Positions 13,961 through 61,148 of a stretch of DNA of 64,000 bases are shown one piece after another (position 1 is the stretch's first letter; each line of letters opens with the position of its first letter). Location: the NCBI RefSeq assembly GCF_014635685.1, contig NZ_BMDH01000001.1, forward strand, positions 310,001 through 374,000, written 5' to 3'. Below the pieces are notes generated by a model. That model was not told the origin of the DNA. It saw nothing but the letters and a program-made list of their open reading frames with translations, and searched no databases. Origin of the DNA: Galliscardovia ingluviei (GTDB taxonomy: Bacteria; Actinomycetota; Actinomycetes; Actinomycetales; Bifidobacteriaceae). A program made the position numbers and the translations under genes.

Positions 13961-13965
13961 ATCGG

Positions 13966-14039
13966 TGCGCCAGACAGGATTCGAACCTGCAACCTTTTGA
14001 TCCGTAGTCAAATGCTCTAATCCATTGGGCTACTGGCGC
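13966..14039 (-). tRNA. tRNA-Arg (anticodon ACG)
   Basis: A 74-base cloverleaf: acceptor GCGCCAG paired with CTGGCGC, anticodon stem TTTGA/TCAAA around loop CTACGGA (anticodon ACG), and T-loop TTCGAAT. CCA is not encoded. A second identical copy lies at 61075-61148. Confidence 0.95.
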
Positions 14040-42577: not shown

Positions 42578-42621
42578 TTGTGCCATTGATAAGGTGCTCA
42601 TAAGGTGACCTTATTAATGGC
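42578..42621 (+). repeat. Candidate attachment-site repeat, left copy
   Basis: A 44-bp sequence that recurs at 46697-46740 with 36 identical positions by eye; the first 20 bases differ once. It has its own symmetry: arms GCCATTGATAAGGT and ACCTTATTAATGGC around a 12-base centre, the layout of a tyrosine-recombinase core site. The integrase relic begins 51 bases later. The centres of the two copies differ, which argues against a recent attL/attR pair. Confidence 0.5.
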
Positions 42622-42671: not shown

Positions 42672-43409
42672 ATGACCGCAACAAGACGCACTAAAGGTGC
42701 TGGATCCATCTTCAAAGACAACAGAGGCGTATGGCACTTTAGAAAAAACCTAGGCAATAACCCAGCCACAGGCAAACCACAAATCCTCGAAGTTAAAGGC
42801 AAAATCAAATCAGAAGCAAGAGAACGATTCCAGGCAAAAATAGCCGAATACGAGCGCACAGGATACATCAAAAGCAACAAAAGCCCGTACTTTAAGGACT
42901 ATACTGAACGATGGCTTGAAGACTATCAGACGCGAGTTAAACCCAACACCTACCGCACTCGTGCTGGATGAGTCAAAGCACTCAACGACATCATCGGATA
43001 CGTGCGACTCGAAGACCTTAATGCGCAACACGTACACGGCATACTATGGCTGACCACGCCAAAAACACGAGCAGCAAAACGCTTCGTACCCATAGCAGAA
43101 GCCTTATGGCAACGACTATGGGCACGCATTCACAGACTGCATATTAACGATCATGAGTTCGTGTTTACTAGCGCTCGCGGTAATCCGATTCGTGATAATG
43201 TGGAGCGGTATCATTGGTTGAAAGCGTTGGAAGCGGCTGGGCTTCCTCGGGTGAAGATTCATTCGGCATGGCATTGGTTGGAGACGATGGCTGCTTGGAC
43301 TAATATGCCTGATGATGTGCGGATTAGTATCATAGGACATACGAGTATTGATATGACGGCGCATTATACGCATTGTGATGCGGCGAGTTTGGGGTTGCTG
43401 CTTGCTTAG
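42672..43409 (+). pseudogene. Inactivated phage-type tyrosine integrase
   Basis: ATG 42672, with AAAGGGGC upstream, opens an AP2-like arm-binding domain (GAGSIFKDNRGVWHFRKNLG) and the start of the core-binding domain. The frame stops at TGA 42969, then continues in the same frame as VKALNDIIGYVRLEDL. The sequence jumps from there to TTPKTRAAKRFVPI, so the end of the core-binding domain and the first catalytic arginine are missing. In the catalytic domain the HxxR box reads HSAWHW (Arg lost), while the GHTSIDMTAHYTH box keeps the nucleophilic Tyr. It therefore has a nonsense codon, an internal deletion and a missing catalytic residue. Confidence 0.85.
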
Positions 43410-43495
43410 GCTATTCCGCCGTTGCGTGACGATGATGATGTGCAGGTGATTGATATTAGCTAGAGTATGAGTATTGCCGTTGTAAGCGAAAATAA

Positions 43496-43804
43496 ACTCG
43501 TTTGCAACGGTATGTGGATAAGCGCAGCGTGAGTGGTAAGGGTAATCTTTTTGAAGTGCTTGCCAATGAGTTCGCTGGATCCCTTCTTATGCCTGAACAA
43601 GAAGTCCAAAAATGCATAGAGGCAGGCATGAGCAGAATGGATCTTGCCGTGTATTTTGGCGTATCTGTAGACGCAATAACATATCGTAGAAAGATTCTCA
43701 ACATATGTACGAAAGCCCATCCAGCCTTTACGATAGATGGGCTTTCGCGAACTAGACACTGCCTAGCTTCATCACGCAACTATTCTACAGTGGGGAATAG
43801 ATAA
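43496..43804 (+). pseudogene. C-terminal relic of an ImmA/IrrE-type peptidase
   Basis: The frame reads LFEVLANEFAGSLLMPEQEVQKCIEAG followed by LAVYFGVSVDAITYRRKIL (quoted in pieces). This is the region that follows the metal site in ImmA/IrrE proteins (ANEFAxxLLMP ... LAxxFGVS). There is no HExxH motif upstream, because the frame is closed at 43493, and the last 35 residues do not match the family. ImmA-type peptidases cleave phage-type repressors, so this fits a decayed prophage or ICE. Confidence 0.6.
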
Positions 43805-43820
43805 ACAATATTTGAAGATA

Positions 43821-44867
43821 TTAACTCCTAGATTTGTTCCGCCTTATTGGCAGCGCGGTAAGACTCGTCATACTGTCAGATATCTCTCCCTGATCTGTCT
43901 TTTCGTAAAAGCGAACTACGCTCATTAAAAGGATTTTCATCACATGCAATCTCAATACAAATATTTTTTTATAATGAGCAGTCTCATCTTGATACCAATC
44001 CTTGTGCTTATCAAGCCGATTAATAAAACTTTGCATTGCATGCAGCCTACCATCTCGTATCTTCCTACTGCGCACGAGGTTAATATGGGTTAGTAGTACG
44101 CATGCAAAATCATGAAGCAGTATGTCTGATAATACGTGTATTTTTACCAGTGTGCGGTCATCTGCTGGTACATCCTCAATGAGCCAATCAAGCATTTGAC
44201 TTAATCTTATACTTTTCTTGGCATTGGTGTTTGAAGGTACAAGTAAACAATTATGATGCGATGCAGCATTGCGCAGAAGCCTCATGCCAAACAATAAAGG
44301 ATAGATTATATCGTCAATATTGTTGTGATAAAGGAATGAATGATAACACTGAATAAGACTATTTAAAGTGCAAGTCTCCCAAAAAAGCCATATTGGTTGT
44401 GCTGAAATATACTTATCAAGCATGCCTTGAGTGTAAACAGACTGACAAAATTCATTTTTTGGCTTATATGACTGATTTTTCTTAGCATAAAACGCATTTT
44501 GATCCTGATGATATGTGTGTAATACCTCATAAGGATCGATATCATCGTATGCTGATATCAAATTATTAAAACGGATACGTAGAGAATGTTCAATATCGCC
44601 AGTCAATCCCAAAATCAATGAACGTAGATGAAAATCCAGTGCTGCAATATCTTGTAAATTAGCAAAATCAACGTTGTAATAATTATTGTCAGCATTTTTG
44701 TAAAAATTATTGTCAAAAGCCTTGAGTTTAAAATAGTAGGTGTTCTCTGTGAGGAACTTAACTGCGTCCTGTCTTGAACATTTCTCAAACTTAATATTAT
44801 GCGCAGCCATATGGTCACATTGCTCTTTAGCTGTGAGAGCAGGACGCTTATTTGTTTTCTTAGACAT
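43821..44867 (-). CDS. Abi_2/AbiF-like abortive infection protein with HEPN motif
   Basis: A 348-residue protein of the AbiD/AbiF (Abi_2) group. The N-terminus has the family pattern KEQCDHMAAHNIKFEKCSRQDAVKFLTENTYYFKLKAF (quoted in part: AHNIKFEKC, YYFKLKAF), then LRSLILGLTGDIEHSLRIRF. The HEPN ribonuclease motif appears as LLRNAASHHN (R-x4-H) near residue 198. AbiF-type proteins block phage growth by harming the host cell, presumably through RNA cleavage. The 270-base region just upstream contains a structured, terminated leader (see the ncRNA entry). There is no clear ribosome-binding site (AAGAGTCGAA before the ATG). It is AT-rich compared with its neighbours, suggesting transfer. Confidence 0.85.
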   Translation of the reverse strand: MSKKTNKRPALTAKEQCDHMAAHNIKFEKCSRQDAVKFLTENTYYFKLKAFDNNFYKNADNNYYNVDFANLQDIAALDFHLRSLILGLTGDIEHSLRIRFNNLISAYDDIDPYEVLHTYHQDQNAFYAKKNQSYKPKNEFCQSVYTQGMLDKYISAQPIWLFWETCTLNSLIQCYHSFLYHNNIDDIIYPLLFGMRLLRNAASHHNCLLVPSNTNAKKSIRLSQMLDWLIEDVPADDRTLVKIHVLSDILLHDFACVLLTHINLVRSRKIRDGRLHAMQSFINRLDKHKDWYQDETAHYKKIFVLRLHVMKILLMSVVRFYEKTDQGEISDSMTSLTALPIRRNKSRS

Positions 44868-44891
44868 TTCGACTCTTATAAATATAAAAAT

Positions 44892-44921
44892 AAAAGGCGG
44901 CCCACCTATTGGCTAGCCGCC
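44892..44921 (-). terminator. Terminator 25 bases upstream of the AbiF-like start codon
   Basis: On the minus strand, GGCGGC ... GCCGCC with inner GCC/GGT pairs is followed by TTTTATTTTT. It would stop transcripts entering from upstream before they reach the AbiF-like gene, leaving only partial read-through. Confidence 0.8.
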
Positions 44922-45064
44922 AGTTTGGAGAAGCTCACATCCGCGTAATCATACTAGATGCAATGCTTTCTCGCGTACATGTAGGAGGTAATTTTACAGG
45001 TTTTTTTGGTGTTGCGCTAGTAGATAGGCGTGTCTACTGGATATAGTGATATAATCACCAAACC
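44892..45064 (-). ncRNA. Candidate structured RNA preceding the AbiF-like gene (possible RNA antitoxin)
   Basis: On the minus strand, no reading frame fills 44868-45120, yet the segment is highly structured. TTTGGTG (45062-45056) can pair with CACCAAA (45011-45005), enclosing the hairpin AGTAGA/TCTACT (45038-45019). A strong terminator ends the unit at 44892. A possible -10 (TATAGT) lies just before the first stem, with a poor -35. From memory, some AbiF-like HEPN proteins are encoded beside inhibitory non-coding RNAs, which this layout matches. The alternative is a leader or attenuator with repressor operators: GTGATATAATCAC at 45046-45058 is itself palindromic. Confidence 0.5.
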
Positions 45065-45140
45065 TATACTATATGTAGATATTTGAATATAATCTATTAT
45101 CCACTTAGATATTTTGAAAGAATGTTATTCAAATCACAAC

Positions 45141-45494
45141 TCACACCATGCTCGCGCTCGCTAGCACAAGCAGCTGATAATCTTCCATCACGTGCACTGT
45201 AACACCCAAATCAGACGCCATCAAAAAGCGTTCACCCTCGAACATGCATTGCGCTAGCCGATACTCTAATGGGCTAACCAGCCGCAACGCAGTATCACGC
45301 CGAGCCCTACGCTCGCACTTACCAGACAGCCAGTGGTCGTGCAAACTATCCCCATACCGCGCATGAGTAAGCTCATGAGCAAGAGTGCACAAGCGTTGCA
45401 CGTCCGAGAGTTTAGGGTTGAGGACGATAGTGTGCCGCTCATGATCATAGAGCCCGCACAGTTCATGCTCCAGACGTTGCTCTCTAATGCGCAC
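45141..45494 (-). CDS. ImmA/IrrE family metallopeptidase, start uncertain
   Basis: A short zinc peptidase with the HExxH site in LAHELTHARYG (about residue 40). It resembles prophage ImmA proteins that cleave the element's repressor. The homologous reading continues upstream of the GTG at 45494 (TFDQLACEAELLG), but that part has no ATG, GTG or TTG in frame before a TAG, and a GTA stands where a start would be expected. The true start may have been lost. No repressor gene is visible next to it. Translated from GTG it is 117 residues. Confidence 0.65.
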   Translation of the reverse strand: MRIREQRLEHELCGLYDHERHTIVLNPKLSDVQRLCTLAHELTHARYGDSLHDHWLSGKCERRARRDTALRLVSPLEYRLAQCMFEGERFLMASDLGVTVHVMEDYQLLVLASASMV

Positions 45495-45776
45495 GCCCAG
45501 TAGTTCAGCTTCACATGCAAGCTGGTCAAAAGTTACACTGCTCGTATCAAACCCTTTTATCTATCTTTATTAGTTTTATCCGTTTTGACACGCCTTTTGC
45601 GAAAAACTATCAATACATGTAAAACCGTCAAACGGTCAACTTGTGTGGATTACAGCTGGGCTCCCGAATGTGAGTAAGACGGTAGGTCGAGAATTCCTTT
45701 GATCTTGGAGTTGACTCTGATTTTTATCCCCTTGTTTTCTGCCTATATGCCCTTTTGCCGTGTTGGGGCTACTGCT

Positions 45777-46204
45777 ATGAGCAAATGGAAAGCGTATCGG
45801 CGTGACGTGTTTGCTTATTATTTGGATGCGGGTTCTCCTCGTGATGGCAAGCTTATCTCTGTCAAACCTACGGTTGCCCCACCCATGCCTGTTGATGGAC
45901 CACAACTATCAGACAAACAATGGAACCACATCTTGTACGGCAGCATTGTTCGCAGTGGTAGCGATTTTGACTACAGCGGTGGTCATTGTTTGGGTATAGA
46001 TGAGCCGCAGATAGACCACAATTCCCTAAAACTGGGAAAGTATTAGAATAGAAAAAGAACTAGTTGACACTTATAACAAACGGTCATCAGCGAAAGACAA
46101 TATTAGGCAATACGTTTTATACAAAAACAGTAGAAAAAATCACTGTTGAAGCGTTAGTAAACAGAAAACACATAATAATCTCATTCTACCCAAAGGAGGC
46201 GTAG
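45777..46204 (+). pseudogene. Decayed EndoU-like toxin domain, first copy
   Basis: ATG 45777 (MSKWKAYRR) leads to LSDKQWNHILYGS ... YSGGHCLGIDEPQ, which resembles the HILxG ... GGGH segment of bacterial EndoU toxins. The frame stops at 46046. Matching coding sense continues in another frame (RIEKELVDTYNK, from 46047) and then a third (KITVEALVNRKHIIISFYPKEA) ending at 46204, like the beta-strand end of EndoU domains. At least two frameshifts are needed. Four bases later a small gene with a strong ribosome-binding site begins. Recognition is by pattern, not by search. Confidence 0.45.
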
Positions 46205-46208
46205 TACT

Positions 46209-46553
46209 ATGACGGAACGCGAACTTCGCTATAAAACTCGCCACCATCAAACATACGACACATACACCTATTGCCGAGAACTCATCAAAGGACATGTTTC
46301 TAATGAATATTTCGCATTTCTAACGCTTCCATCATTAAACTACGATTTCGGACTTTTCTTCTATGAAGCGCTCGCTGTAATTATAAAGCATGATGATTTG
46401 GATTTGCTTGCTCCTGAACAAATGAGGAGAATACTGCACTGGATGAGAGTATCATGCTTAAATATTGACGGTGAGATTGATGGTGAAATATCTGATGTTA
46501 CTAAGTTATATCAGAAGTCCACTGGTGAAAAATGTAATTCCATATTCTGTTAA
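46209..46553 (+). CDS. Small hypothetical protein, possible immunity protein of the first toxin relic
   Basis: A 114-residue frame starting at ATG 46209 with a perfect AGGAGG seven bases upstream, which makes it more likely real than the many other short frames here. It is mixed in charge, soluble and helical-looking (SNEYFAFLTLPSLNYDFGLFFYEALAVI), with no signal peptide. It directly follows the decayed EndoU-like domain, the normal place for a cognate immunity gene. I do not recognise the family. Confidence 0.6.
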   Translation: MTERELRYKTRHHQTYDTYTYCRELIKGHVSNEYFAFLTLPSLNYDFGLFFYEALAVIIKHDDLDLLAPEQMRRILHWMRVSCLNIDGEIDGEISDVTKLYQKSTGEKCNSIFC

Positions 46554-46696
46554 TGCGGAGCTGTAATTTGAGCTATCACGGATGGTGGCTTTATTTTTAG
46601 GAGGCAATAATGGAGATAAGAACCTGAATAATGTTGTCGGTACAGCGACGCTTGAGCTTATACCTGATGCGCACAAGCTCAAGCTGTTGTTTCTTG

Positions 46697-46740
46697 TTGT
46701 GCTATTGATAAGGTGCATGTAAAGAGACCGTATAAATGGC
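46697..46740 (+). repeat. Candidate attachment-site repeat, right copy
   Basis: Second copy of the 44-bp repeat at 42578-42621, in the same orientation, with arms GCTATTGATAAGGT and ACCGTATAAATGGC around a 12-base centre. It ends 19 bases before the stop of the AlpA/Xis-like gene. A 46-codon frame (46582-46722) crosses it but has no support beyond being open. Confidence 0.5.
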
Positions 46741-46758
46741 GTTTGATAGCTGTCTGTA

Positions 46759-46962
46759 TCATTGATTTTTATCTGCTTTTCGTGGTCTACCGCCTCCAGC
46801 GCCTTGACCCGGCATATGCGCGCGCCAATAGTCTATGGTCTCGGGTAACCAGCCACGTGTATTGCCTATCAGTGCGTCTGGCTCTGGGAGTTTGTATGCT
46901 GCGGCGTTGGTTACACCGATGTGTTTTGACACGTCTTTTACTCCTAAGAATACTTGTGTCAT
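46759..46962 (-). CDS. AlpA/Xis-like small DNA-binding protein
   Basis: A 67-residue protein beginning MTQVFLGVKDVSKHIGVTNAAAY, an AlpA/excisionase-type winged helix-turn-helix, then NTRGWLPETIDYWRAHMPGQG and a basic tail. The ATG at 46962 has GGAGGTAA upstream, clearly better than longer frames. Its start codon overlaps the stop of the upstream small membrane-protein gene (ATGA). Such proteins direct excision or early transcription of integrated elements, consistent with the nearby integrase relic. Confidence 0.7.
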   Translation of the reverse strand: MTQVFLGVKDVSKHIGVTNAAAYKLPEPDALIGNTRGWLPETIDYWRAHMPGQGAGGGRPRKADKNQ

Positions 46963-47117
46963 TGTTTTACCTCCGTAAGATAGACGGTTATTGCGCGCAC
47001 GCCACCCGCAAGAGCGAATAGTCCAGCAGGAAGCGCCCAGCCCACTATGCCGCAAAGTAGCGATGTGAGTGCACATAGTGCAAGGATGATAATATTTAGA
47101 ATTTTTCTGATTTTCAT
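46959..47117 (-). CDS. Small membrane protein (52 aa) coupled to the AlpA-like gene
   Basis: MKIRKILNIIILALCALTSLL opens a 52-codon frame with two hydrophobic stretches (residues 7-24 and 29-46) and the end VYLTEVKQ. Its TGA overlaps the ATG of the AlpA-like gene, and the GGAGG for that gene is inside this frame, so the two are translationally coupled. TATACT/TATAAC lies within 15 bases upstream of the ATG and no ribosome-binding site is seen, so the message may be leaderless. Function unknown; conserved partner status would need checking. Confidence 0.55.
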   Translation of the reverse strand: MKIRKILNIIILALCALTSLLCGIVGWALPAGLFALAGGVRAITVYLTEVKQ

Positions 47118-47224
47118 AAGTTATAGTATACTCAAATCAAATTAATGATGGATTAGTTGTTCTAGTTACCGAAAACTACCTGATGTTGGTGAGGCTGATG
47201 GGACAATAATTGTAATTATCATTT

Positions 47225-47613
47225 ATGCTTAGCGATACGCAATTATATAGTCGTTTGCTAAGTACCTTACATGGTGAAGTTTGGAAGAATGCTTATCACG
47301 GGAATCACATTCTCTATGGAAATTATGATGTTCATGCGAAAAAATAGCGTGGCAGACACTTATATGACTTCGAATGAATCGAAGGGTAAGATTTCCATCG
47401 TTTCCTAAGAAATGGGACGTGCAAGATGTTCAACAAATGCTAGAATATGGATTAAGAAAATATCATGGTAGCGTTAGTCAAATAATCGAGCTCAGCGCTA
47501 ATGAGAGCAACTATCGTATTGTACTGGATTGGAGCAATAGCCAAGTAACCACATTCTATCAGCTAAAGGAGCAGAGTCATGGCATTACAGCATTGCGACG
47601 ACAACGATATTAA
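47225..47613 (+). pseudogene. Decayed EndoU-like toxin domain, second copy
   Basis: ATG 47225 gives MLSDTQLYSRLL ... AYHGNHILYGNYDVHAKK, then TAG at 47345. The same frame resumes as RGRHLYDFE, and a frameshift near 47372 leads to RVRFPSFPKKWDVQDVQQML ... NYRIVLDWSNSQVTTFYQ (pieces). The order HILYGN, GRH, RFPxxWDxxDI, then a strand pair ending VTTxY, is the layout of bacterial EndoU ribonuclease toxins. One stop and one frameshift make it inactive. No delivery domain is attached. Confidence 0.5.
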
Positions 47614-47872
47614 TGCTTTAGCTGATATTCTCTCCGAAGCTGGGTGTGAGTATGCTGCGAAAAATATACTTAACCAGATGAATGATGCTGGTGAATTTGA
47701 TGCAGCTGTAGCTATTTTTATTGCCGAGGCGCTCAAGAATAGTGTATCAATTCCGAGAACTTTATACGACGATATCATTAGTTGTTACTCACTTAATCCG
47801 CTTGATATGGATTATTGTCCACGTATGTTCAACGGGATGAAACAATTGGAAGAGAATAAGCTCGTGAAATAA
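47579..47872 (+). CDS. Small hypothetical protein, possible immunity protein of the second toxin relic
   Basis: A 97-residue frame from ATG 47579, with AAAGGAGCAGAG upstream. It overlaps the end of the toxin relic, as toxin-immunity pairs often do. The protein is acidic and helical (ALADILSEAGCEYAAKNILNQM, then DAAVAIFIAEALK). It is intact although its probable toxin partner is broken. A strong terminator follows. Family not recognised. Confidence 0.65.
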   Translation: MALQHCDDNDINALADILSEAGCEYAAKNILNQMNDAGEFDAAVAIFIAEALKNSVSIPRTLYDDIISCYSLNPLDMDYCPRMFNGMKQLEENKLVK

Positions 47873-47892
47873 CTATCAAATAAGTTCTATCT

Positions 47893-47925
47893 GAAGCCAC
47901 CCAAACGGGTGGCTTCATTGTTTTT
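47893..47925 (+). terminator. Terminator between the orphan immunity-like gene and tRNA-Tyr
   Basis: GAAGCCACCC / GGGTGGCTTC (10-bp perfect stem, 4-base loop), then ATTGTTTTT, ending one base before tRNA-Tyr. Confidence 0.9.
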
Positions 47926-48009
47926 GGCGGTGTAGTCAAGTGGTCAACGACGCTCGACTGTAACTCGAGTCCCATTTGGGTGCGCTAGGTTCGAATCCTG
48001 CCGCCGCCA
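47926..48009 (+). tRNA. tRNA-Tyr (anticodon GTA)
   Basis: An 84-base class II tRNA: acceptor GGCGGTG/CGCCGCC, anticodon stem CTCGA/TCGAG with loop CTGTAAC (anticodon GTA), long variable arm with TCCCA/TGGGT, and T-loop TTCGAAT. The base at the foot of the T stem is mismatched (C-C). CCA is not encoded. Confidence 0.92.
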
Positions 48010-48073
48010 CGTTTCGCAGACTCCGCACGCTGCGTTGTTAACAGTGCGCCAAAACACAGTAAAGGATTACATT

Positions 48074-48232
48074 ATGTTCAAGCCAGAAGAACTCTTGCAT
48101 CTCTTTACCAGCATGGTGGAAAAGGTAGATAGGCTCTTTTCAGGTTGTATTCCGGATATAAAAACGGGGGGTGCGTTACTCTGCCATTATTGCGCATACT
48201 GTTTACGATATTGCAGTGGATGCATACCATAG
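48074..48232 (+). CDS. Short hypothetical frame after tRNA-Tyr
   Basis: ATG 48074, with AAAGGA nine bases upstream, opens 52 codons beginning MFKPEELLHLFTSMVEKVDR. The first 35 residues look like real protein. The end (CHYCAYCLRYCSGC) overlaps the antisense AraC gene tail and looks accidental. It may be the truncated start of a gene that was cut off by insertion of the AraC/porter locus. Confidence 0.3.
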   Translation: MFKPEELLHLFTSMVEKVDRLFSGCIPDIKTGGALLCHYCAYCLRYCSGCIP

Positions 48233-49062
48233 TGCTGTTTGAAAATAGCGATAAAGCTTCGCGCACTTGCAAATCCCGTCTGGCGAGCGATGTCGTTCAA
48301 TGATCCGGGGTATTGATACATCAAGAGATAGTAGGCATCTTCAAGGCGTAATGTAGTGAGATACTCTTTGAATGTAATTGAGCTATTTGCTTTAAAAAGA
48401 CGAGAAAAATATTCACGACTGTACCCAAAATATGAAGCGACATCTTGTGCTCTGAGTGCATGTCGTTTATGGGCATCAATATAGCCAAAAATAGGTTGCA
48501 TAATATTTTGCCCGTGTTGTGTTATTGGTTGTTTGCGACTTCCAACAGTAAATTTTCTAAATGTTAAATACGCTATTTCAAAGAGTAGGGCGTTAATTTT
48601 TAATGAACGTTCAGCGCTGATTGCTGATGTAAGATCATAAATTTGCATACACAAATCTATAAATTGAGCTCTATCCGCATCAGTGGCTTGAGGAGCATTG
48701 GGGCTAAGTAGCACATTATCTACCAAGTTATATACTTGGCGAAGTCGTACATCATCATATGTCATAGAGATAATAAGCGGATTTTTTCCATTGCGTTTCT
48801 CTTCTACAAAATTATGTAATTCATAGGGAGAAATAATACACATTTTGCCGGGATACAGTGCTTCGACTTTTGAACCTATGGTTACAGTGCCACTGCCTTA
48901 AATCACGTAATTCATTTCCAGTCCAGCATGCCAATGTGTTGGTACTAACTCTGGCTGCTGATGAATAAGTACTCTAGCGATATATCGTGAGGAACATGCA
49001 CTTTGTTCACAATAGTTTCTATCAATAACTGGGCTATCTTTAACGATGAACTCATTATTCAT
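48187..49062 (-). pseudogene. AraC-family regulator with one in-frame stop
   Basis: The full frame is 292 codons from ATG 49062. An N-terminal cupin domain is readable (RYIARVLIHQQPELVPTHWHAGLEMNYVI, in part), then a TAA at codon 55 (48898-48900), then GSGTVTIGSKVEALYPGKM in the same frame. The AraC double helix-turn-helix is intact at the C-terminus (RAQDVASYFGYSREYFSRLFK and DIARQTGFASARSFIAIFKQHYG). One base change (for example CAA to TAA) would explain the stop. It would have controlled the divergent sugar porter, perhaps together with the esterase. Confidence 0.85.
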
Positions 49063-49195
49063 GAATATCACCTCGGTACAAAGTACGTTACGAAAGTGCT
49101 ATAACTATGTCACAAAAAGTATATTTGTCATTCCGAGTATTCCTAATATTAAACAATGACAAGGTCGTCAAAGAAATACATAAGGGGGGATAGCC

Positions 49196-50626
49196 ATGTC
49201 ACAGTCTCATACTGCTACTGCACAATTAGCCCCAGCAGTAAAGCGCAAAATAATTGTGGTATGTTTATGTGCTGCAGTGGGCGGTTTCTTATTTGGTTAT
49301 GATACTTCTGTAATCAATGGTGCTGTTGATTCGATTGCGGGCACATAGTCTGGTTTTGGACTGAGTAGTGCTATGAGCGGTCTTTCGGTATCATGCGCAC
49401 TTCTAGGATGTGTACTTGGAGCATGGTTCACTAGTCAAATAGCTGATCGGTTTGGTAGAGTGCCTACTATTCTTATAGCGGCAATATTGTTTATTATCAG
49501 TTCTATTTTTTCAGCATTTGCTACTGGTATCTGGATGTTTATTTTCTTCCGTTTAGTCGGCGGATTAGGTGTTGGACTTACCTCGGTAATCGGACCAGCA
49601 TATATTGCAGAGATTACTCCTGCGCAGATGCGAGGATTCCTTGGAAGTTTTCAACAATTGGCGATTGCTTTAGGTATTTTGGCTTCAGTTATTGTAAATG
49701 CTGTTTTCGCAGGTATTTCTGGTAGTGCCGATAACCCATTCTGTTTTGGTGTTAGCACGTGGCGTTGGATGCTGCTTTCCATGATTGTTCCTGCGGTTAT
49801 TATGCTTATTGTTTCATTTACGCTTCCTGAATCTCCCCGATTCTTAGTGATGAAAGGCAAGGATAGTCAAGCGGAACATATTTTGGGAACAATTGTTGGT
49901 GAAGCTAACCCTAGGGCAAAAGTTGCTGAAATTCGCCACACTATGAACCACGAACATATTGCTCGTTTGCATGACTTGCGAGGTCCAACATTTGGTTTGA
50001 AAAAAGTTGTTTGGCTTGGCATTGGTATTGCTCTATTACAGCAGGTTTGTGGCATCAATATTATTTTGTATTATGACTCAAGTCTGTGGAAATCAGTTGG
50101 TTTTAGTGAACAAGCAGCTTTGAATATTTCTGTCTATCGCACTATTGCCGCGGTGCTTGCGACTGTTGTTTATATGGTAATTGTAGATAAAGTTGGTCGT
50201 CGTAATATTTTGAAGTGGGGCTCTGTTGCTATGGCAGTGTTCTTAGCAATTGCAAGTTTTGGCTTCCACCAAGCAACTATAACTGATGCTGGAATTTCGC
50301 TACCAGGTATTTGGAGACCGGTTACATTGCTTGCCGTGTACGCATTTTATGTGACATTCTGTCTAACATGGGGTCCAGCGATGTGGGTAGTTATTGGAGA
50401 AATATTCCCTAATGATATTCGTGCTCTTGGTGTGGCTGTTGCAACTGCATTTAACTGGATTGGCAACTTTGCAGTTTCTAATACATTCCCTCCTTTGAAG
50501 AATCTGATTGGGATTGGCAATGTTTATTTGATCTATGCGGTGTTTGCATTACTAGGATATGTGTTTGTTGTAAAGTTATTACCAGAAACTGCTGGTGTAA
50601 CTTTGGAAGATATGAAGGCAGAATAA
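49196..50626 (+). pseudogene. Sugar porter (MFS) with one in-frame stop
   Basis: ATG 49196, with AAGGGGGGA upstream, opens a 476-codon sugar/H+ symporter: AAVGGFLFGYDTSVINGAVDSI, then TAG at codon 51 (49346-49348), then SGFGLSSAMSGLSVSCALLG in the same frame and the rest intact, including DRFGRVPT, PESPRFLVMKG, QQVCGINIILYY and LLPETAGVTLEDM. All twelve spans are otherwise present. A single change (CAG to TAG) explains the stop. Internal restart at ATG 49373 would lose the first span. Confidence 0.88.
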
Positions 50627-50627
50627 T

Positions 50628-51665
50628 ATGTTCGCAAAAACACAAGAAAATATTGATAGAATACGCACTTTTACGCCGGTTGATGAGGATTTAGCGCAGA
50701 TACCAGCAGATATTGCGCGAGTAGCTATTGAAACTCGCGAACAATTTGGGCTTGGTGTTGATTCTTATCGCTGCCAACTATGGTGTGATCCTGATGGTAT
50801 TGATGTGTTTGCTGATATCGCGTATGCACAACCTACCGGTGATACGATTGCGCATATCAAAGCTCATAGTCTTGATATTTACCTACCGCATGACGCTTTG
50901 TTGCGAGGCGGAGCTACGTTGCCAGTGATTGTTGACATCCATGGCGGTGGTTTTGTTTACGGGTATAAGGATTTGAATCGCAATTTTGGCACTCACGTAG
51001 CATCATATGGTGTTGCTGTGGTGTCTTTGGGGTATCGTCTTGCTCCAACGACTGATTTTATGGGTCAATTGCAAGACATTTTTACCGCGCTACAGTGGTT
51101 ACAAGCTCACGCACACGAATACCCTATAGATTTGCGTAACTTGTTTATCACCGGCGACTCCGCAGGGGCAACCCTTGCACTCTACACAGCTGCAGCTCTC
51201 AATAGCACTGTAGTCGGTGAGCAGCTGCATTGTCCAATACAAGATTTGCCGGTTCGAGGTACGATATTCCAATCCGGATTATTTGAGTTGGAACCATTTA
51301 CACGTGGGTCATCTACCACGGATACGCTGCCATACATCGCCCAAATGGGAGGGACATTCTTCACATCGTTCGCCGAACAAACTACAGAGGAATTGCAATC
51401 TATGCAAGGGCTTGTACAATATGCGCAGTTGCCACCATCGGTAGTTATTACGAGTTCCGATGATTTCTTGGAAACGCAGTCATTACTATTTGCTGCAGCT
51501 ATGCGACAGCGTGGTAATTATTGTGAAATCTACGATGTTGTGCCTACTAAAGGTAAGACATTAGGTCATGTTTTTCCTGTGGGGCAGGTTTGGCTCGAAG
51601 AGTCACAGCAAGTATTTGAAATCATGCAACGTTTTGTTTTTGATCATTCACAATATTATCTCTAG
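50628..51665 (+). CDS. Alpha/beta hydrolase esterase (hormone-sensitive lipase type)
   Basis: A 345-residue esterase. The oxyanion motif is HGGGFVYG (about residue 105), the nucleophile is Ser in GDSAGA (about residue 177), and candidate Asp and His lie in TSSDDFLET and LGHVFPVG near the end. No signal peptide, so it acts in the cytoplasm. It starts one base after the porter stop, so the two form one transcript. It would remove acyl groups from an imported sugar or glycoside. It remains intact although its regulator and porter are broken. Confidence 0.85.
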   Translation: MFAKTQENIDRIRTFTPVDEDLAQIPADIARVAIETREQFGLGVDSYRCQLWCDPDGIDVFADIAYAQPTGDTIAHIKAHSLDIYLPHDALLRGGATLPVIVDIHGGGFVYGYKDLNRNFGTHVASYGVAVVSLGYRLAPTTDFMGQLQDIFTALQWLQAHAHEYPIDLRNLFITGDSAGATLALYTAAALNSTVVGEQLHCPIQDLPVRGTIFQSGLFELEPFTRGSSTTDTLPYIAQMGGTFFTSFAEQTTEELQSMQGLVQYAQLPPSVVITSSDDFLETQSLLFAAAMRQRGNYCEIYDVVPTKGKTLGHVFPVGQVWLEESQQVFEIMQRFVFDHSQYYL

Positions 51666-61062: not shown

Positions 61063-61074
61063 CGGGTTAAAGAG

Positions 61075-61148
61075 TGCGCCAGACAGGATTCGAACCTGCA
61101 ACCTTTTGATCCGTAGTCAAATGCTCTAATCCATTGGGCTACTGGCGC
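61075..61148 (-). tRNA. tRNA-Arg (anticodon ACG), second copy
   Basis: Identical over all 74 bases to the copy at 13966-14039 and in the same orientation. Similarity continues into the 5' flank (CATGTTTACT.GATTGCT.CAAGCAACT and AAATCGGCGTGT), so the duplicated unit probably included the promoter. The 3' flanks and terminators differ. Confidence 0.95.

Follow-up and report, generated by a model that had tools for sequence, protein, structure and literature searches.

A cross-genus sugar-use cassette of Galliscardovia ingluviei has probably become a pseudogene pair in the recent past. If the assembly is right, the pair is real: a recent and ordinary case in which an AraC-family regulator and a divergently transcribed sugar porter are each interrupted by one in-frame stop codon. 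Our analysis concerns a window of 64,000 nucleotides (contig NZ_BMDH01000001.1, positions 310,001 to 374,000), the relevant features of which are collected in Table 1. The original prediction held that a single TAA breaks the regulator and a single TAG the porter, both frames being otherwise perfect. Translation bore this out for both, with a regulator frame of 291 aa interrupted at codon 55 and a porter frame of 476 aa interrupted at codon 51. Both stops lie well before the normal end of the gene and the orthologues of relatives are full-length, as expected of unitary pseudogenes.

Table 1. Features of the interrupted cassette and of the neighbouring integrase relic in the window.
Feature	Position	Strand	Remarks
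Tyrosine-recombinase relic	42672..43409	+	about 149 codons missing; W for R in HSARHW
In-frame TGA in integrase	42969-42971	+	codon 100
AraC-family regulator gene, stop-interrupted	48187..49062	-	Cupin/AraC_binding sensor and HTH_18; orthologues
In-frame TAA in AraC gene	48898..48900	-	codon 55/291, within sensor domain
Divergent intergenic region AraC/porter	49063..49195		133 bp
Sugar porter family MFS transporter gene, stop-interrupted	49196..50626	+	translation, Pfam, NCBIfam, orthologues
In-frame TAG in porter	49346..49348	+	codon 51/476, past first hydrophobic segment (by eye)
Open porter remainder from internal ATG	49373..50626	+	417 aa, without first hydrophobic segment
Alpha/beta-hydrolase esterase, intact	50628..51665	+	345 aa open; Abhydrolase_3 / BD-FAE

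The families of both broken genes can still be recognized. With the stop replaced by X, the regulator matches the Pfam domains HTH_18 (71.1 bits, cut-off 33.6) and AraC_binding (26.6 bits, cut-off 21.1), and the combination of a C-terminal HTH pair with an N-terminal sensor domain places it in the AraC family. The porter, treated in the same way, matches Sugar_tr over residues 22-474, and its 417-aa remainder alone passes the cut-off of TIGR00879 (sugar porter family, MFS; 301.2 versus 237.8 bits). The closest solved structures to this remainder are XylE-type D-xylose/proton symporters (PDB 4qiq, 4gby); the XylE model NF007484 gives the porter 301.7 of 608 bits, far under its cut-off. Two other sugar porters of the same genome (E<=1e-60) are 34% and 37% identical to the broken one, and their functions may overlap with it. 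By eye, a ribosome-binding site is kept at both normal starts. A search of the intergenic region for conserved operator sites yielded no convincing common motif among the compared sequences. As a side observation, third-position GC is 0.29 in AraC and porter (48187-50626), against a mean of 0.38 (sd 0.05) in 201 long ORFs of this genome, and 0.36 in the esterase; in the porter and AraC genes of the three closest relatives it ranges from 0.65 to 0.96.

The esterase was correctly predicted to be intact, being open over 345 aa. It keeps the motifs HGGGF, GDSAG, SSDDF and GHVF, and a Pfam match together with HGGG, GDSAG, Asp and His, which we take to be the catalytic elements, assigns it to Abhydrolase_3 / BD-FAE. 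None of the nine NCBIfam models that it matched reached the cut-off; the scores for acetyl esterase (57.5 of 389 bits) and AxeA1 (35.1 of 700 bits) fall far short. The acetylated-sugar substrate proposed earlier is a guess, as by sequence the esterase is only generically Abhydrolase_3/BD-FAE-like. The closest solved structure, Esterase B (PDB 4n5h; E 5.7e-28), covers residues 81-335 only and presumably comes from Lactobacillus rhamnosus. When the proteins of named genomes were scanned with this enzyme as query, no relative was confirmed.

Porter matches at E<=1e-120 were found in 24 of the 189 genomes of the family, that of G. ingluviei included. Wide loci were taken for 16 of the 23 other porter genomes (G005, G052, G137, G152, G162, G163 and G164 were left out) and, through AraC matches, for G113, giving 17 loci from collections that hold one genome per species. 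AraC, porter and esterase occur in the same arrangement in 16 of these 17 Bifidobacteriaceae loci, the exception being the G113 locus (L106), which has no porter match. Three Actinotignum loci, each from a different species, also carry the cassette. This shared gene order argues that the full-length genes are real, and 18 of 19 porters and 18 of 19 AraC genes in the other cassettes have no internal stop. Among the papers listed by a literature search, none deals with this AraC/porter/esterase cassette, judging by titles.

The closest cassettes are those of G089 and G080 (putative Bifidobacterium reuteri DSM 23975 and B. platyrrhinorum SMA15), followed by that of G102, a putative Bifidobacterium MAG. 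In the first two, gene order and orientation are as in the window, with identities of 82-83% for the porter, 51-54% for AraC and 51-53% for the esterase; unlike the window, they have no internal stops in any of the three genes. The G080 cassette lies between two genes that we read as gnd- and pgl-like and not, as in the window, beside tRNA-Tyr. A more distant version (porter 63%) is carried by four of the eight other genomes of the window's own GTDB genus, which suggests that the cassette may have been transferred between genera; the porter tree groups the window with G080 and G089, with a support of only 69. No AraC or porter match was found near ychF or the kinase gene in nine stretches compared within the genus.

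Nonsense codons were also encountered in two other cassettes. The AraC gene of a putative Bombiscardovia coagulans (G146, L100) has a TAG at codon 278 of 301, a putative nonsense codon which may do less harm as it is near the C-terminus, and the porter of Actinotignum timonense (L141) has a putative nonsense TAA at codon 144. With the window included, 3 of 20 cassettes are affected, with four stops in 60 genes and none in an esterase. One could propose that this cassette is lost to single nonsense codons more readily than usual, having been hit in three separate lineages, in porter or regulator and never in the esterase, and that its uptake arm has been repeatedly selected against while the hydrolase has an independent role. 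We regard this as rather improbable, and the recurrence as no more than suggestive; by gene length alone, four stops would all miss the esterases with a chance of about 23% (our own arithmetic).

The original prediction explained both stops by a single C-to-T change in a Gln codon, and the alignments do not favour this. In 19 orthologues, the column of the porter stop holds V (5), K (5), R (4), A (3) and T (2), and never Gln. The AraC column holds E (5), S (5), H (3), Q (2), A (2), T (1) and R (1); both Gln belong to Actinotignum, and the three closest orthologues have Glu. From these columns, a Gln origin would be unsupported for the porter and second best for AraC, in which the lost residue was more likely Glu than Gln. 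Both stops fall at freely varying sites. CpG decay was considered as a common cause, and the dinucleotide ratios of integrase, AraC, porter and esterase, set against those of ychF and the kinase gene, do not suggest it.

The suggestion that the regulator and the porter were lost recently fits the data. The porter retains the common residue at 162 of the 164 columns without variation among 16 orthologues. Of the two departures, W183C affects a position where all 19 others have W and could be older damage or harmless. Under neutrality, 16 to 21 missense changes are expected per nonsense change in the porter, and a long-dead porter should therefore show more damage at invariant sites, although the numbers are too small for a date. 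The AraC protein departs at 8 of 45 columns invariant in 16 others, and each of these, put to the same test, shows 0 to 4 departures at 37 to 41 columns; constraint on AraC could thus have been relaxed long before the stop appeared. However, the intact esterase departs at 6 of 59 invariant columns and also has a long branch in the window (0.74 versus 0.44 in G102, compared with 0.64 versus 0.45 for AraC). Since the esterase is nearly as divergent, the departures of AraC do not separate the two genes and do not decide for or against relaxed selection on AraC. The kept ribosome-binding sites and the well-conserved porter together indicate that the decay seems young.

The most serious alternative to a recent pseudogene pair is that faults of sequencing or assembly at this locus produced the stops and that the living strain has an intact cassette. 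The assembly comprises 12 contigs with 95.6% completeness, and the two stops are only 450 bp apart, as a local fault would have it. Yet the cassette region has a single DNA match in the genome, and it would be a coincidence for errors to strike two linked genes and nothing else in the sample. We scanned 464 kb of the same assembly for hexamer coding potential (22% of its 2.09 Mb, made up of the window and 20 further stretches of 20 kb each), retaining stops with 50 open codons on each side and a coding score above a cut of 0.1 on both sides. The first condition left 463 stops, of which 22 also passed the second; 20 of these were judged by eye to be ordinary gene junctions or weak, probably non-coding cases, and the other two are the AraC and porter stops. 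Across the 464 kb, no other native-looking gene proved to be interrupted by a nonsense codon. As a control, 963 of 1005 random codons (96%) in 201 long ORFs of the genome passed the cut, an optimistic figure as these ORFs overlap the training set of the scan. The scan is blind to frameshifts and to stops less than 50 codons from a frame end, and it missed the TGA of the integrase, whose sides score 0.07 and -0.05, so that it is weak on atypical genes. None of the 41 ABC_tran matches listed for this genome (of 56 found) carries an internal stop, one listed match of G003 does, and internal stops occur in 2 of the best 150 sugar porters listed from the 189 family genomes, the window porter and one in G063. 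Within what was sampled, the defect is confined to the AraC/porter locus. Local errors are therefore an unlikely source of the stops. Within the limits of the scan, which revealed no third nonsense codon of this kind, we reject as unlikely both errors throughout the genome and recoding, which had been dismissed from the outset; by our own reading, TAA, TAG and TGA are each used to terminate genes at junctions in the sampled DNA.

Other readings accept the stops and differ on their consequences or their cause. One possibility is that translation restarts at internal ATGs, giving a sensor-damaged AraC that retains its DNA-binding domain and a porter minus its first membrane segment. In-frame ATGs do follow both stops, the remainders are open over 218 and 417 aa, and the HTH domain (residues 209-288) lies wholly inside the AraC part after the stop. 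However, by eye, neither internal ATG, that of the porter at 49373 included, has a good ribosome-binding site upstream, in contrast to the normal starts, and the segment missing from the porter remainder begins all 19 other porters examined. An MFS porter that lacks its first helix would not be expected to function, and we find active truncated products quite improbable. Still less credit is due to a single decay process that would join integrase, AraC and porter in one event. It was correctly pointed out that the three nonsense codons fall within 6.4 kb (42969 to 49348), but the integrase is much more decayed. It lacks about 149 codons relative to copies in G002 (L128), G001 (L130) and a viral contig (L134), and it has W in the HSARHW motif where 5 of 5 close copies have R. 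In tyrosine recombinases this Arg is catalytic, and a second catalytic Arg would lie in the missing stretch. The loss of some 149 codons and of the motif Arg marks the integrase as an older relic, unrelated to the cassette stops, and its TGA does not belong to the same event as had been implied; moreover, no AraC or porter match surrounds related integrases in the G001 and G002 stretches compared. We give equally little weight to the idea that the esterase is kept by selection for another use, the regulator and the porter having been shed as unneeded for it. The esterase is indeed open in all 20 cassettes examined, the three with a broken gene included, with GDSAG present in every one of the 20 and HGGGF in 19. 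Nevertheless, two random nonsense mutations would both spare it with a probability of 0.42-0.47, opportunities being counted on the real sequences, and the window esterase diverges as fast as the window AraC. Its intactness says nothing on use, because chance spares it about 45% of the time.

The integrase of the window may instead be part of the relic of an old element, at about 42.5-48 kb and outside the cassette. In G001 a related integrase lies about 0.2 kb from ychF, and in G002 (contig C5) another lies about 15 kb downstream of this gene, while copies on G002 contig C23 and in G008 are away from ychF. Of the five close copies, L129 (G008) and L133 (G002) are irregular, with other or unclear gaps. 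Several additional features were noticed in this part of the window. Two 44-nt direct repeats, 82% alike, lie just upstream of the integrase relic (42578-42621) and 4.1 kb further on (46697-46740), and may correspond to element ends or operators. The element relic also contains an open Abi_2 / AbiD-like abortive-infection gene (43821-44867, minus strand). A small DNA-binding protein, phrog_597 (46759-46962, minus strand), has a 66% relative that adjoins the integrase copy on G002 contig C5; the window protein is perhaps an excisionase or regulator of the element. Elsewhere in the window, two tRNA-Arg (acg) genes (13964-14039 and 61074-61148, both on the minus strand) are identical over 75 bases and 47 kb apart.

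Returning to the recent pseudogene pair, a simple sequence of events can be proposed. In intact relatives, judging from the families of the three proteins, the AraC-type regulator would respond to a sugar or a related ligand by activating the divergently transcribed operon of porter and esterase; the compound would be taken up through the porter, and the esterase would cleave off an acyl group. In the window, the nonsense codons end the regulator within its sensor domain and the porter after its first hydrophobic segment, so that neither should work. Whichever gene was broken first would have removed selection on the other, and the esterase would still be open probably because too little time has passed.

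Such a history has parallels. Young bacterial pseudogenes caused by a single nonsense codon likewise show one stop per frame in an otherwise intact and conserved gene, and likewise affect linked genes of one unit; we found no difference between them and the window pair. The arginine decarboxylase genes of Chlamydia trachomatis are reported to show a similar pattern of independent inactivation through nonsense and missense mutations (PMC2720952).

Altogether, the AraC and porter stops appear to be real, rare in the sampled part of the genome and separate from the older decay of the integrase. Both genes should be annotated as pseudogenes, and the cassette should not be counted in predictions of sugar use. 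The broader use of the finding is modest. The genome of G. ingluviei measures 2.09 Mb, compared with 2.6-3.1 Mb for eight others of the genus. Provided that the loss is fixed in G. ingluviei, it would mark a carbon source that the species has recently abandoned.
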